38,341 nt of DNA from Oscillospiraceae bacterium. GTDB lineage: Bacteria > Bacillota > Clostridia > Oscillospirales > Oscillospiraceae. Position numbers and translations under genes: made by a program. Positions 910 to 5,813 of the stretch are shown piece after piece (position 1 is the first letter of the stretch; each line of letters opens with the position of its first letter). The stretch spans positions 1 through 38,341 of the forward strand of contig JAFQIL010000029.1 in the NCBI GenBank assembly GCA_017397565.1, read 5' to 3'. The notes beneath the pieces are model-generated. The model made no database searches. It was not told the DNA's origin and saw only the letters and a program-made list of their open reading frames with translations.

Positions 910-1356
910 TTAGCCTTCTACCACGACGGTGCCGTCTTCCTTAACGGTGACGGACATACCGTCCTTGACGTAGCTTAAGAAGTCTTCGCCCAGAGAGTCG
1001 ATAACCGGCATCTGTACGCCCTCCAGCCAGACGGATGCCAGAATGGAACCGGCTGCTGCCAGAGAGTCAATGGGGTTGCTAAACAGCATACATCCAGGCT
1101 GGCGACCCATGGCACAGGCGCAGTACAGCACCAGTCCACCGGTGGTGGAGCCAATGGTCATGGGCAGGCACAGAGCTTTGCCTGCCAGCTCCTTACCGTG
1201 AAGGTCCGGGTTGTTCTGATCGCCGCAGGTGGCCTTCTTGTCGCCAAACTGCAAAGCACCCTGCAAAGAAGCCAGAGTGTTAAAGCCGCCATGGGAAACC
1301 ACAGCTTCGGCAGTGATCGTGCCGGGGGCAACGATGCGTCCTTTAAATTCCATCAT
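910..1356 (-). CDS. Aconitase X, small (swivel) subunit
   Basis: A 148-residue protein matching the swivelling domain of aconitase X (DUF126 family). This domain forms the active site together with the large subunit. The conserved glycine/serine loop GSTTG is at residues 69-73; in the family this loop supplies an active-site serine. The gene overlaps the 3' end of the large-subunit gene at the sequence ATGATG (TGA of one inside the ATG of the other), preceded by AAAGGAGG. This implies coupled translation and an equimolar complex. The second ATG, one codon later, is an equally possible start. In archaea and some bacteria the domains are separate genes, as here; in other bacteria they are fused. 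Known activities are cis-3-hydroxyproline dehydratase in bacteria and phosphomevalonate dehydratase in archaea. Which applies here cannot be told. Confidence 0.88.
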   Translation of the reverse strand: MMEFKGRIVAPGTITAEAVVSHGGFNTLASLQGALQFGDKKATCGDQNNPDLHGKELAGKALCLPMTIGSTTGGLVLYCACAMGRQPGCMLFSNPIDSLAAAGSILASVWLEGVQMPVIDSLGEDFLSYVKDGMSVTVKEDGTVVVEG

Positions 1357-2633
1357 TTCTGCTGACCTCCTTTGGTGATGATCTCCAAAATTTGGGCTTC
1401 GGTGTAGTACCGGGACGTGGTGTAGGTCCGCAGCTTGTTGGAAGAGGTGATGACATTCATGCTCTTGCACAAAGGATTATTCATGTACATCAGGGGGCAG
1501 ATATAGGACAGGATGACACCGGTATCCTTCAGCCGTTGGGCAAACTCAGTCTTTTCAAATTCCTTTTTCACAGCCGGGGCGGTGGTGAACACGGTGGGAA
1601 CCAAAACCTTCTTGTTGCCGGCGGCCTTCAGACCTTCTTCCACACGGACAGTCCAATCTTTCAGCTGCTGCATGGACATATGGGGGCAGCCGATGAAGCA
1701 AAGCTTGGGTGCGCCATCAGGCTTTTTCCACATAACAGGATATTCCCGCTGGACCCGGGCCAGCTCTTCATCGTCGATAACATAGACCTTGGCATCGGGG
1801 GCAATCAGTCCGGTGCCCAGCTCCTTGGCTTCGGGGGTCAGGTTCTCAATGTGGTAAAGGCCTACTGCACCGTTACTGGCGGTGGCTGCGCCGAAGTCTT
1901 TCAGGTAGGCGCAGGTTTCGTCACTGAGCTCTGTGCCAAGCCACTTTTCTATGCCGGTGATGTAAGGAACATCCTCCATAACCTTCATGCCGATGGCAGA
2001 GCCGAGAAGCTGAGCCTCCGGCTTCTTGGCGCATTCCACCTTGACGATCCAGGTGGCTTTCCGTCCCTCGTCGGTCAGCAGACCGAAGTGGGGGACACAG
2101 CCGGCGATGGAGCCCATGATGTCCATGATACCGGAGTTGCGGTTGCAGCGGGCACCCAAAACAGAGTTGGCATAGACCACGGCGGAGGATTCTGCCCAGC
2201 TGAGAATATCGCCCTTTTTGGGCTTATTGCCTACCTGATCTAAGTAGCAGGCGCAGGTAAAGGCATCCTCGTTCATCAGACCAAGCTCTTTCAGCTGCTG
2301 TTCGTAGCTTTCCTGGGTGGAATACATGAACTTGTTGAAGATCAGCTTCTGCAGGAAGTTGGCGGGAACATTTTTGTCCAAAGGACGGGGGTCAACAGAG
2401 AATTTCTGGGAAGAGATGGCACCGGCATCGATGAGCTGCTGCATCAGATCAAAGACCGGTTTCATCATCTTAAGGCCAAAGGATGTGACCAGATGGTTAT
2501 AGTCGGATGTGACGGGAACCAGCTTGTCAGCGCCAAAGGTCTCACCGTACATCACCAAAGTCTTCATGACTTTGGCCATGGTCTCACCCTTGGAGCCGTT
2601 TAGTACCGCTTGTTGTTCGTCGGTTAAGTACAT
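1353..2633 (-). CDS. Aconitase X, large catalytic subunit
   Basis: A 426-residue protein of the aconitase X catalytic family (DUF521), an Fe-S dehydratase. Recognisable family blocks are SWAESSAV (about 145-152), GARCNR (160-165, with a cysteine likely to bind the cluster) and IGCPHMS (314-320). The ATG at 2633 is preceded by AAAGGAG at good spacing; an upstream start at 2657 lacks a site. The length is normal for a separate large subunit. It overlaps the small subunit by four bases or fewer. Upstream on the same strand lie a palindrome array, the four-helix-bundle gene and the FadH-like flavoenzyme. No separate promoter is evident, so it is probably read from the promoter near 5504-5532. The likely reaction is dehydration of a hydroxy acid, possibly cis-3-hydroxyproline. 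Confidence 0.88.
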   Translation of the reverse strand: MYLTDEQQAVLNGSKGETMAKVMKTLVMYGETFGADKLVPVTSDYNHLVTSFGLKMMKPVFDLMQQLIDAGAISSQKFSVDPRPLDKNVPANFLQKLIFNKFMYSTQESYEQQLKELGLMNEDAFTCACYLDQVGNKPKKGDILSWAESSAVVYANSVLGARCNRNSGIMDIMGSIAGCVPHFGLLTDEGRKATWIVKVECAKKPEAQLLGSAIGMKVMEDVPYITGIEKWLGTELSDETCAYLKDFGAATASNGAVGLYHIENLTPEAKELGTGLIAPDAKVYVIDDEELARVQREYPVMWKKPDGAPKLCFIGCPHMSMQQLKDWTVRVEEGLKAAGNKKVLVPTVFTTAPAVKKEFEKTEFAQRLKDTGVILSYICPLMYMNNPLCKSMNVITSSNKLRTYTTSRYYTEAQILEIITKGGQQK

Positions 2634-2663
2634 TGTATCCACTCCTTTATTAATCATTTTTAA

Positions 2664-2811
2664 GTCGATATATCGCTTTGCGATTCAACATGTCGCCGTT
2701 GGCGACAAGTGCGATATAAATCCCTCTCGCCCCGCAGGGCATATCGATCCGCGAAGCGGAATATCGAGCGCGTCAGCGCATATCGAAAATCCCGTCAGGG
2801 ATTTATATCGA
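2664..2811. repeat. Palindrome array A with TCGATAT linkers
   Basis: A run of short perfect or near-perfect palindromes joined by the linker ATATCGA. In order these are ATCGC-TTT-GCGAT (2672-2684), TGTCGCC-GTT-GGCGACA (2691-2707), a GCCC/GGGC stem (2729-2740), TCCGC-GAA-GCGGA (2748-2760), GCGC-GTCA-GCGC (2768-2779) and AAATCCC-GTCA-GGGATTT (2787-2804). It lies between the four-helix-bundle gene and the ribosome-binding site of the aconitase X large subunit. It is homologous to array B upstream of the four-helix-bundle gene. There are no variable spacers, so it is not a CRISPR array. Confidence 0.9.
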
Positions 2812-2846
2812 TGAATCAATCATGTGCAAGGCACACGATTGATTCA
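2812..2846 (-). terminator. Long hairpin at the end of the four-helix-bundle gene
   Basis: A 16-bp stem with one A-C mismatch (2812-2827 with 2831-2846, loop AAG). The TGA stop codon forms the first three bases of the stem on the minus strand. It has no U tract and leads straight into array A, so it may be a structural boundary rather than a terminator. Confidence 0.6.
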
Positions 2847-3191
2847 CGCTTTGTTGTTTTTCGCCGTGGTGATGGAAGCGATCAATCTGCGACGGATAGA
2901 ACCGCAATCATTTCGTAATGTTTTGTAGTTGTCCTCCGTTATCTTTCCTTTGCGGTATAACAACTCCAGCCAATAATCCGTTTCGGAGCTTTCTTTCAAA
3001 GCGATTTCCAATTTGCTGATAAAGTCTGCCCGACTTTGGGCATATTTGGCTTCGTGGATATTGGCACCAATGGAGGAAGATGCACGAAGAAGCTGATTTA
3101 CGAAGACAGAACAACCTTTAATATTATCGCAAACATCTGAAATCTCGATTGCAAAAACGATACTGTCTTCTCTTAATTGATTCTTTTCCAT
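2844..3191 (-). CDS. Four-helix-bundle protein (S23/Avd-like, TIGR02436 family)
   Basis: A 115-residue protein with the hallmark of the 23S rRNA intervening-sequence protein family: QLLRASSSIGANIHEA (about 33-48), then DFISKL and a KESSETDYWL segment. Family members include S23-type proteins encoded inside rRNA intervening sequences and the accessory variability determinant (Avd) of diversity-generating retroelements. They form small helical-bundle oligomers with basic surfaces that bind nucleic acid. The C-terminal tail here is basic (RRRL, KNNK). The ATG at 3191 follows AGAGGTGTGAAGC. The gene is bracketed by two homologous palindrome arrays and sits in the middle of a metabolic operon, with no reverse transcriptase or rRNA gene in the window. 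Its function here is unknown; a structural role on the RNA or DNA of the arrays is inferred. Confidence 0.9.
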   Translation of the reverse strand: MEKNQLREDSIVFAIEISDVCDNIKGCSVFVNQLLRASSSIGANIHEAKYAQSRADFISKLEIALKESSETDYWLELLYRKGKITEDNYKTLRNDCGSIRRRLIASITTAKNNKA

Positions 3192-3209
3192 GCTTCACAC
3201 CTCTTGCTG

Positions 3210-3377
3210 TCGATATGTTGCTTCGCAACTCGATATTTTTGCTTCGCAAAATCGATATATGCCTTCGGCATTCGATATGATATAAATCCTATCTCGCGCC
3301 GCAGCGCATATCGAGTGCGGCAGCACATATCGAGCGCGTCAGCGTATATCGAAAATCCCGTTAGGGATTTATATCGA
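3210..3377. repeat. Palindrome array B with TCGATAT linkers
   Basis: Seven or more palindromes joined by ATATCGA linkers: GTTGC-TTC-GCAAC (3217-3229), TTTTGC-TTC-GCAAAA (about 3237-3251), ATGCC-TTC-GGCAT (about 3259-3271), GCGC-CGCA-GCGC (3296-3307), GTGC-GGCA-GCAC (3315-3326), GCGC-GTCA-GCGT (3334-3345) and AAATCCC-GTTA-GGGATTT (3353-3370). The last two match the same end of array A almost base for base. Both arrays also share a GATATAAATCC segment. Stems differ between arrays while pairing is kept, which points to selection on the folded form. Confidence 0.9.
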
Positions 3378-3378
3378 C

Positions 3379-3407
3379 TGCATGAAACTGTGTTACAGTT
3401 TCATGCA
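3379..3407 (-). terminator. Hairpin containing the end of the flavoenzyme gene
   Basis: A perfect 12-bp inverted repeat TGCATGAAACTG / CAGTTTCATGCA with loop TGTTA. On the minus strand one arm is the last four codons of the flavoenzyme and the loop contains its TAA stop. There is no U tract. It abuts array B in the same way the 2812-2846 hairpin abuts array A. Confidence 0.6.
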
Positions 3408-5453
3408 AACATCCCACGCGCCCCAAATGACGCTGCGCAGGTTGCCAACCTTTTGGGCATCGCCGATGACATGGATGTGTCTTCCCTTGGCTGCCAGGGG
3501 AGCGGGTTTATATCCGACAGACAGGATCACATTGTCGGCAGCGATCTTAAAGGTCTTGCCCTCTTTGTCAGTAACGGTAACGCACTCGTCGGTGATCTCG
3601 TTCAGCCGGGTCTCCAGATGGACGGGAACCTTGTTGGCCTCGAAGAAGTCACGCAGATAGCTGGTGTTGGCAAGGCACACACCGGGAGTGGTGATCAGGT
3701 CGTCCTGCATTTCTACGATGGTGGGGTGCTTACCCTGGAGGTACAGCTCGTAGGCGATTTCACAGCCGGTCAAACCGCCGCCGATGATGGTGACGTTTTC
3801 GCCCACTTCGGCTTTGCCCAGCAGGAAGTCCACCGCCTGAATGCCCTTTTCAAAGCCGGGGATGGGGATGCGGTTGGGGGTAGCGCCGGTGGCAACGATC
3901 ACTTCGTCAGCGCCCAGTGCGGCAATGTCGGTGATCTCGGCGTTCAGATTAATGTCGATGGGGTACTTACGGAGCTCCCGCTTGTACCAAGCGATGAGGG
4001 CCTTATCCTTTTCCTTGAAGGAGGGGGCAGCGGCGGCGATGAACACACCGCCCAGCTCACCGGTTTTTTCATAGAGGCTGACGGTGTGACCGCGCTTGGC
4101 GCAGACCAGGGCAGCCTCCATACCGCCGATACCGCCGCCGATAACGGCGATCTTCTTCTGCTTTTTGGCGGGTTTGATGTAATGCTTCCTGGATTGCATG
4201 GTCTCGGCATTCAGGGCGCACCGGGCAAGCCCCATGGTGTCCTTCAGATCCTGGGTGTTATAGTGACCCTTGGAGGAGGAGAAGTTGAAGCAGCCGGCAT
4301 GGCAGCAGATGCAGGGGCGGATATCCTCCAGCCGGTCCTCGATCAGCTTGGTGATCCACTCGGGGTCAGCCAGGAACTGCCGGGCAACGCCCATGCCGTC
4401 AATGCGGCCCTCGGCAATGGCCTGAGCGGCATCCTCCGGCTCCATACGGCCGGCGCAGACTACGGGAATGTCCACAAACTTCTTAATGTGTGCCACATCC
4501 TCCAAGTTGCAGTTTTGGGGCATATACATAGGCGGATGGGCCCAGTACCAGCTGTCGTAAGTACCGTTGTCGGCGTTGAGCATATCGTAGCCGGCATCCT
4601 GCAGGTATTTGGCGGCACGCTCGGACTCTTCCATGTTCCGGCCCTTTTCTTCGGCGGTGTCACCGGGAACAATGCCCTTCTGGAAGCCCTTCAGCTTGGA
4701 CTCGACAGAGTATCGCAGGGAGACAGGGAAATCGTCACCGCAGCTTTCCTTGATGGCCTTGACCACCTCGGCAGCGAAACGGTAGCGGTTTTCAAAGCTG
4801 CCGCCGTATTCATCGGTGCGCTTGTTGAAAAATTCAATGGCGAACTGATCCAGCAGGTAGCCTTCGTGAACTGCGTGGACCTCCACACCGTCAACACCGG
4901 CATCCTTACACAGTTTGGCTGTTTTGGCAAAGGCCTCGATGATCTCGTGGATCTGCTCCTTGGTCATCTCAGGGCAGATAATGTCCGGTGCCCAGCGGGC
5001 AGGTTGAGCGGAGGGGGAGGCTAGCTCATGACTGGTGTCCAGAACGGGCTTGATCAGAGCCCGGGTAAACTTTTTCTTGTGCAGAGGTCCAACCAGCTCG
5101 GTAATGGCCCAGCTGCGACCCATGCCGGCGGTGAGCTGAATGAAAAGCTTTGCGCCGGTTTTATGGATCTGTACCATAAATTCCTTCAGCTCATCGAACA
5201 TTTTGGGATTTTGCCACAGCCATCTGCCCCAGAAGGTGTTCCGCAGGGGCGCGATACCGGGGATGATCAGGCCGACATTATTTTGGGCGCGCTCCAAAAA
5301 CAGCTTGGCAGCTTCCTTGTCGAAGCCACTGCCTGTCAGCTCAAACCAGCCGAACAGGGAGGTGCCGCCCATGGGACACATGACGATGCGGTTTTTGATC
5401 TCTACGTTGCCGATCTTCCAGGGGGTAAACAGGGCATCATATTTTTTATCCAT
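3393..5453 (-). CDS. FadH/BaiCD-type NADH:flavin oxidoreductase (Fe-S, FMN, FAD)
   Basis: A 686-residue enzyme with the full architecture of 2,4-dienoyl-CoA reductase and related enoate reductases. An Old Yellow Enzyme TIM barrel (about 5-370) carries the family signature HEGYLLDQF...DEYGGSFENR (196-223). A 4Fe-4S cysteine cluster follows at C381, C384, C388 and probably C412. An FAD-binding GGGIGG loop is at 439-444 and an NAD(P)H-binding GGGLTG loop at 558-563. Such enzymes pass electrons from NAD(P)H through FAD and the cluster to FMN and reduce an activated C=C bond. The gene heads a minus-strand operon with its own consensus promoter and dyad. It is followed by array B, the four-helix-bundle gene and aconitase X. 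Pairing with a dehydratase suggests reduction of a dehydrated acid; the substrate is unknown. Confidence 0.9.
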   Translation of the reverse strand: MDKKYDALFTPWKIGNVEIKNRIVMCPMGGTSLFGWFELTGSGFDKEAAKLFLERAQNNVGLIIPGIAPLRNTFWGRWLWQNPKMFDELKEFMVQIHKTGAKLFIQLTAGMGRSWAITELVGPLHKKKFTRALIKPVLDTSHELASPSAQPARWAPDIICPEMTKEQIHEIIEAFAKTAKLCKDAGVDGVEVHAVHEGYLLDQFAIEFFNKRTDEYGGSFENRYRFAAEVVKAIKESCGDDFPVSLRYSVESKLKGFQKGIVPGDTAEEKGRNMEESERAAKYLQDAGYDMLNADNGTYDSWYWAHPPMYMPQNCNLEDVAHIKKFVDIPVVCAGRMEPEDAAQAIAEGRIDGMGVARQFLADPEWITKLIEDRLEDIRPCICCHAGCFNFSSSKGHYNTQDLKDTMGLARCALNAETMQSRKHYIKPAKKQKKIAVIGGGIGGMEAALVCAKRGHTVSLYEKTGELGGVFIAAAAPSFKEKDKALIAWYKRELRKYPIDINLNAEITDIAALGADEVIVATGATPNRIPIPGFEKGIQAVDFLLGKAEVGENVTIIGGGLTGCEIAYELYLQGKHPTIVEMQDDLITTPGVCLANTSYLRDFFEANKVPVHLETRLNEITDECVTVTDKEGKTFKIAADNVILSVGYKPAPLAAKGRHIHVIGDAQKVGNLRSVIWGAWDVCMKL

Positions 5454-5557: not shown

Positions 5558-5572
5558 GATTACGGAGAATGT

Positions 5573-5813
5573 CAATTCCCGTTTGTCGGGCTGTAGGGGA
5601 CGGGTTTCCCGTCCCGCAAACCTTCCCCCTCGGGGGAAGGTGGCTTCAAAAAATGTCCAAAAGTGGACATTTTTTGAAGACGGATGAGGGGGAAATGAAG
5701 AAAAACGTCCCCTCATCAGTCAAAAATCAAAGATTTTTGACAGCTTCCCCTTGGGGGGAAGCTCAGCGGCTGCGCCGCTGGTTCTAGTGTACTGCCCGAT
5801 AAATGGCAATTTG
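5573..5813. repeat. Composite repeat region between the flavoenzyme and metY
   Basis: This non-coding stretch starts with a minus-strand copy of the boundary motif (5573-5591) and a GGGACGGG/CCCGTCCC hairpin (about 5597-5614). It then holds a ~145-bp element (5619-5763) with related palindromic ends, ACCTTCCCCCTCGGGGGAAGG and AGCTTCCCCTTGGGGGGAAGCT. Inside are two perfect hairpins, AAAAAATGTCC/GGACATTTTTT (about 5649-5675) and GTCAAAAATC/GATTTTTGAC (about 5718-5740). A plus-strand boundary-motif variant closes it (5794-5812). Related elements occur near 10.04, 12.60 and 38.21 kb. No protein is encoded. Confidence 0.8.

Follow-up and report, generated by a model that had tools for sequence, protein, structure and literature searches.

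A four-helix-bundle gene between arrays of a 7-nt word: a candidate mobile element without a transposase in an Oscillospiraceae operon

A small gene for a four-helix-bundle protein of the TIGR02436/PF05635 family, accompanied by two arrays of the 7-nt word TCGATAT and lodged between two genes of an Oscillospiraceae genome, is best read as a mobile element that lacks a transposase, whose protein would recognise the repeats and which would be inserted by copy-back or template switching; we put the probability of this reading at roughly 0.6. The locus lies in a stretch of 38,341 nt, referred to here as the window, and the association of the gene with short repeats across bacterial lineages is well supported. 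In the portion of the open-licence literature covered, no description was found that links the TIGR02436/PF05635 gene family to these repeats. If the reading is true, a source would be found for bacterial 7-nt tandem repeats, for whose horizontal spread "no mechanism is evident" according to the available part of PMC4679880, an orphan Rfam RNA (Gut-1) would be assigned to a mobile element, the IVP-type proteins would gain a testable role, and a new class of mobile elements would be recognised that has no recognisable transposase, recombinase or polymerase.

The window locus and the corresponding site in relatives

On the minus strand between 1353 and 5453, the order is flavoenzyme, palindrome, array B, four-helix gene, palindrome, array A and aconitase X (Table 1). 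The product of the four-helix gene scores 80.3 bits against PF05635 (curated cut-off 33.8) and 89.6 bits against TIGR02436 (curated cut-off 24), which makes it a member of both families, and structure prediction gives four helices with a mean pLDDT of 95; no transposase or nuclease is encoded within the unit formed by the arrays and the gene. A first-pass annotation of this DNA had described one four-helix-family gene between two hairpin arrays with a fixed 7-nt linker (ATATCGA/TCGATAT) and differing stem sequences in their hairpins, and all of this was recovered, with array A at 2665-2811 and array B at 3210-3377. Read on the gene strand, each array consists of four forward linkers TCGATAT followed by a turn to the inverted ATATCGA, and the two arrays are direct repeats of each other, with 51 nt matching at 96% (2761-2811 vs 3327-3377). 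The annotation had taken this common end to be gene-distal in both arrays, which does not hold, as the direct orientation places it gene-proximal in array A and gene-distal in array B; it had also missed the two palindromes and the two core segments that are complementary to the first linker and head stem. Five modules are counted upstream of the four-helix gene and three downstream, while dinucleotide shuffles of such flanks never gave more than one (n = 174). Elsewhere in the window, further intergenic inverted repeats were noted by eye at 740-830 and 5570-5790.

Table 1. Features of the window locus, in the order in which they are met on the gene strand
Feature	Position	Strand	Remark
Host gene upstream of the insert, OYE/FAD flavoenzyme	3393..5453	-	
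Palindrome at the stop codon of the flavoenzyme gene, its 5' arm made of native coding sequence	3379..3407	-	arms compared by eye
First part of array B on the gene strand: head stem-loop 3353-3370 between linkers 3371-3377 and 3346-3352	3346..3377	-	
Array B forward half: hairpins 3334-3345 and 3315-3326, linkers 3327-3333 and 3308-3314, core hairpin 3296-3307	3296..3345	-	
Array B core segment, complementary to first linker and head stem	3279..3289	-	by eye
Array B second half	3210..3278	-	inverted linkers and three hairpins
Array B inverted linkers	3210-3216, 3230-3236, 3252-3258, 3272-3278	-	
Array B second-half hairpins	3217-3229, 3237-3251, 3259-3271	-	
Four-helix-bundle protein gene, 115 aa, PF05635 23S_rRNA_IVP / TIGR02436	2844..3191	-	both profiles matched
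Palindrome from the four-helix gene's stop codon, abutting array A	2812..2846	-	inverted repeat
Array A forward half, linkers 2805-2811, 2780-2786, 2761-2767, 2741-2747	2741..2811	-	
Array A forward-half hairpins	2787-2804, 2768-2779, 2748-2760	-	
Array A core hairpin 2729-2740 and segment 2712-2724	2712..2740	-	segment complements first linker and head stem
Second half of array A, degenerate, with hairpins 2691-2707 and 2672-2684 and a last linker at 2665-2671	2665..2711	-	
Host gene downstream of the insert, aconitase X	1353..2657	-	

Among 60 genomes searched, 19 (that of the window included) matched aconitase X at the chosen cut-off, and in 13 of the 18 others the flavoenzyme gene lies upstream of aconitase X, being missing from the stretch fetched in the remaining 5. 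The window has 759 nt between the flavoenzyme stop and an aconitase X start at 2633, which is probably the true start in place of 2657, because the relatives begin at the equivalent of MYLTDEQQ and a ribosome-binding site lies just upstream. The same gap spans 11-50 nt in nine relatives parsed by script, except for 164 nt in L348, where it contains another repeat-like sequence, and it is equally short by eye in the other four of the 13. Neither the four-helix gene nor TCGATAT linkers were found at this gap in any of the 13 relatives, which bears out the earlier proposal of a small element lodged in a flavoenzyme/aconitase X operon. The 5' arm of the window's boundary palindrome falls in the conserved end of the flavoenzyme gene and the 3' arm, which mirrors this host coding sequence, was seen by eye in 0/13 relatives, so that the 3' arm most likely arose together with the insert. 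No direct target-site duplication was evident in the comparison with these relatives, although they are diverged.

The window genome, which is ~61% complete, contains two more TCGATAT-linked arrays (on contigs C20 and C71), and in the one on C20 the head stem is altered and both its partners are altered to match (by eye). Four four-helix genes are present, the window copy included: the second has a TGATAT-linked array of the same plan as the window's, the third has TTGACAA tandem heptamers on both sides, and the fourth (L004:1240-1360) adjoins a CACGGC/GCCGTG hairpin repeat of another kind, which is similar to repeats widespread in gut Firmicutes. Solo arrays, with no gene, are dispersed in genomes, and among the 60 genomes there are 5 that have TCGATAT arrays but yielded no gene with this linker. 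For one solo array (G028), unfilled sites were sought in species-level genomes, which proved too diverged for the junctions.

Repeats beside four-helix genes in other genomes

Of 86 order-level genes, 42 have at least two linker-hairpin modules upstream; two or three modules were reached in 4 of the 308 control windows, and at least two in 0/174 shuffles. Downstream, at least two modules were found in 8/88 flanks of this set. In the GTDB set (80 loci, 76 with enough sequence, partly overlapping the order-level set, e.g. L190 is the contig of L020), linker-hairpin arrays lie upstream in 64/76, versus 9/527 control windows and 0/76. The tie between arrays and four-helix genes that had been anticipated is thus seen at counts far above the controls, and the opposite pattern, common arrays with no link to the gene, was not what was found, though solo arrays exist. 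In Cyanobacteria, Spirochaetota, Bacteroidota and an alphaproteobacterium, short tandem repeats stand on either side of the gene; their unit is mostly 7 nt long, and the two sides are mostly inverted relative to each other. Period-7 tandem repeats were counted in 27/32 plasmid flanks (controls 10/222), 45/179 order-set flanks (7/958) and 18/42 phylum-level flanks (16/248), and in 0/158 flanks of the GTDB set (5/1600), where the genes have hairpin arrays instead. The phylum set is what was left of 29 loci after 8 were dropped that had no tblastn match to the query proteins (only 30 loci were fetched). At the plasmid loci, which are 16 of 25 matching records and were not taken at random, the same heptamer is inverted across the gene in 12/16 and in direct orientation in 3/16. 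The number of copies per arm varies widely (4, 5, 6, 8 and many more), and a strict five-repeat rule is ruled out by the arms that have 4, 6, 8 and many more.

A general hexamer score gave 61/86 vs 6/82 controls and 72/77 vs 31/376, and 13/16 vs 4/34 on plasmids, where controls are few; the period-7 and hairpin tests were used instead, since this score separates weakly at the phylum level (8/21 vs 3/21) and has few plasmid controls. Neither array type was detected at the thresholds used for 17/86, 9/77, 8/21 and 1/16 genes in the four sets, a count for which controls are few in three sets (1/3, 0/0, 0/6) and number 6/248 in the GTDB set. L100 was left out as a duplicate of L099, and the end of L004 was misplaced (frame off by one base) in the module, hexamer, period-7 and either-array counts. 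A distant subfamily, represented by five XCC0516-like loci taken from 23 records, has short repeats on both sides in all five by eye, weak in L390, with a unit of period 7 in 3/5 and of 8 nt in 2/5, and with a seemingly direct orientation in Gemmatirosa; at threshold 12, period 7 is reached on both sides of the gene in L391 only, and in L394 (Azospirillum) period 14 is reached on one side. As a separate observation, the gene also occurs on two phage-labelled contigs from human faeces, L188 and L189 (MT835815.1, MT835590.1), where linker-hairpin arrays accompany it by eye; the automated detector scored one module in each, and a tRNA-like sequence lies just upstream in L188.

The linker word follows the protein. 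Across 48 loci, linker hexamers are correlated with protein identity (Mantel r 0.57, 0/5000 permutations), and the correlation is unchanged in the 39 loci left after removal of those with common flanking genes; in these 39 the nearest protein neighbour has the same linker hexamer in 33 cases, against an expected fraction of 0.167 (L004 was excluded from the linker and protein comparisons). Proteins that are akin carry equal linkers in unrelated genomic contexts, and distinct protein clades have distinct linkers. This correspondence lends indirect support to the proposal of the first-pass annotation that the protein may bind the folded arrays. In an alignment of 20 GTGAAAT-linked elements the hairpin stems change together, with double changes in 21/57 pairs, which answers positively the earlier call for covariation in the stems, and in the consensus fold the forward linkers pair with the inverted ones to give 7-bp helices nested within one another, the hairpins standing at the junctions. 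Almost no variation is seen in the linkers of this alignment, a constancy that is partly built in, as the linker was required for an element to be collected. Covariation by itself is no proof of RNA function, because quasi-palindrome correction could also yield paired changes.

Insertion sites, a possible mechanism and its alternatives

A tRNA gene on the same strand lies no more than 350 nt upstream at 32/85 loci, versus 6/450 control points, and in a second set at 30/73 versus 6/753, with none on the other strand in either set; at the phylum level the count is 1/21 versus 0/126. Away from tRNA genes, the examples often follow stop codons (by eye). Directly before the element, a near-perfect boundary hairpin (stem score at least 9) was found in 31/50 elements, likewise collected by linker-requiring patterns, versus 0/151 random positions of the same loci; the other 19/50 have no such hairpin, some of them being second halves read on the other strand. 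At tRNA genes these hairpins may be native terminators. A second inverted copy of at least 12 nt is present at 8/79 tRNA-linked loci (0/395 shuffles), and 4 of these 8 copies extend into the tRNA, while some of the others match linkers. At L293, the boundary palindrome mirrors ~24 nt that lie beyond a terminator-like hairpin.

The same mirroring is seen at protein-coding sites. The 3' end of a gene that by its sequence is taken to be RlmD-like is a repeated insertion site of elements with different linkers (L022, L033, L038, L041, L111 and G046:C28:8023). In L360 (the L022 site) and L377, which have different linkers, an 18-bp palindrome was found whose 5' arm is the conserved coding end of this gene, a third element at the gene (L382) has a diverged version of the palindrome arm, and the arm is absent from the other RlmD-like orthologs compared (by eye, 30 loci fetched). 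On Nostoc plasmids, 432 nt of an element take the place of 198 nt found in four other plasmids, and at a second site, inside an annotated DNA cytosine methyltransferase gene, 468 nt stand against 330 nt in three others, so that at both sites host DNA was replaced, not cleanly split. The unfilled methyltransferase site contains the element's heptamer, CAATTCG, at the left junction.

In the model favoured here, a small mobile element would be present at the locus in one or two copies. Its sole gene would be that of the TIGR02436 four-helix protein, and its body an array built on a 7-nt word that differs between lineages (TCGATAT in the window), forward and then inverted; hairpins separate the words in the window's clade, and in most of the other lineages examined the words are plain tandem repeats on both sides of the gene. 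The protein, which may assemble as a pentamer by analogy with two solved relatives (2rld and 2gsc, each with 5 chains per entry), would bind the repeated words, the DNA being probably single-stranded or extruded. To judge from the end products, a new copy would be started by a strand end that folds back at a hairpin and is extended by a host polymerase into the mirror arm, following which the extended strand would switch template onto an element copy kept close by the protein, which by gathering repeats would bring the donor copy to the folded strand end. The mirror arms, the replacement of host DNA and the word at the junction argue for fold-back and template switching rather than cut-and-paste.

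Part of this evidence could also be accommodated by a retroelement, in which the array RNA would be mobilised in trans by a reverse transcriptase with an Avd-like role for the protein, and the palindromes would come from self-primed copying at terminators: the elements sit after tRNA genes and hairpins, the L293 boundary palindrome reaches ~24 nt around its terminator-like hairpin, and PF05635 resembles Avd according to the available part of PMC10053308. We regard this as unlikely, however, as no RVT_1 match was found in 10/17 near-complete genomes that carry the four-helix gene, which argues against an obligatory reverse transcriptase, and the RVT_1 matches of the window genome are on contigs C31 and C29, with none on the window contig (C42). 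The first-pass annotation had spoken of a mobile or RNA-based element; the small inserted element stands, while the route through reverse-transcribed RNA is disfavoured. A structured RNA with a cellular role (a Gut-1-like noncoding RNA or a cis-regulator), bound by the protein and only incidentally dispersed, would be in keeping with the nested linker helices, the covarying stems and the proposal of Gut-1 as a noncoding RNA in the available part of PMC2864571, but is distinctly unlikely, given that the linkers differ by protein clade, the copies are dispersed in unrelated contexts, the insert is missing in relatives, and other lineages have plain tandem heptamers with no hairpins.

It has also been considered that the repeats grew by slippage and quasi-palindrome correction near a four-helix gene maintained by the host, with no mobility at all, in which case the stem covariation could be given by copy-back. 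Quasi-palindrome correction makes paired changes in one event, which counts in favour of this account. Slippage has moreover been proposed for 7-nt repeats (PMC4692102 and PMC4679880, in the parts available), but the account is very improbable in view of the akin proteins with equal linkers in unrelated genomic contexts and of a whole unit present in one operon and missing in 13 relatives. Just as improbable is the view that an unrelated transposase of the host recognises the inverted segments and moves the unit as a MITE-like element, which would explain these segments and the several dispersed copies. It is opposed by the host-mirroring boundary arms and the replaced host DNA, neither of which is a usual product of a transposase.

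Relation to known systems

Gut-1 RNA (RF01706) is likewise built of short hairpins chained by a fixed linker. When ten loci were compared with RF01706, five GTGAAAT-linked ones (L025, L032, L040, L043 and L059) gave 13 Gut-1 matches of 50-80 bits (cut-off 50), on both strands in four of the five with one half-array per strand, and the five with other linkers gave none; the window arrays scored 21.1 and 17.4 bits, below the cut-off. By these matches, Gut-1 corresponds to a half-array of this element class. In the available part of its description, Gut-1 is a probable noncoding RNA that has no affiliation with mRNAs and was met in environmental sequences only, and the four-helix gene is not mentioned there (PMC2864571).

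The rRNA intervening sequences with IVP genes involve the same family, PF05635, and in L317, L324 and L394 the four-helix gene lies inside 23S rRNA with short inverted repeats around it (by eye); in the look of their arms, rRNA intervening sequences are thus similar to the present elements. The window copy differs from the intervening sequences in being placed in a protein operon, not in rRNA, and in its hairpin-bearing arrays. In REP/RAYT (REPIN) systems, dispersed palindromic units are accompanied by a related gene that is flanked by them. The dispersed palindromes are a likeness to the present elements, but the gene is not of the same kind, as the product bracketed in the window is a four-helix protein that in a profile search matched PF05635 only and no Y1 transposase. 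Small dispersed repeats have reportedly been described inside heptameric repeats in Nostoc. The heptamer repeats of Nostoc and Xanthomonas (PMC4692102) and the TAACTGA repeats of Beggiatoaceae (PMC4679880) are likewise intergenic tandem 7-nt repeats, and neither "four helix" nor "S23" occurs in the two main texts; the link between heptamers and the gene was seen here on Nostoc and other plasmids, whereas the repeats of Xanthomonas and Beggiatoaceae are compared by description. As for the diversity-generating retroelements, homology between their Avd protein and PF05635 has been suggested (PMC10053308, in the part available), but by RVT_1 the window contig has no reverse transcriptase beside the four-helix gene.

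It is a tentative extension, for which we would give somewhat less than even odds, that the TIGR02436/PF05635 elements all belong to a single superfamily of mobile DNA without a transposase, in which a pentamer would read an array of a 7-nt word and insertion would copy the target into a mirror palindrome, and whose forms would be the rRNA intervening sequences, Gut-1, the tandem heptamers of cyanobacteria and other bacteria, and the hairpin arrays of gut Clostridia.

Four-helix genes with short flanking repeats were also observed between cas1 and cas2 in Anabaena cylindrica (L277), between Cas10 and a Cmr3-family gene in Picosynechococcus (L393), and between DISARM- and BREX-type genes in Planktothrix (L187). 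Insertions such as these might explain why "23S rRNA IVP" is named among the associations of CRISPR adaptation modules in the available part of PMC10910872.
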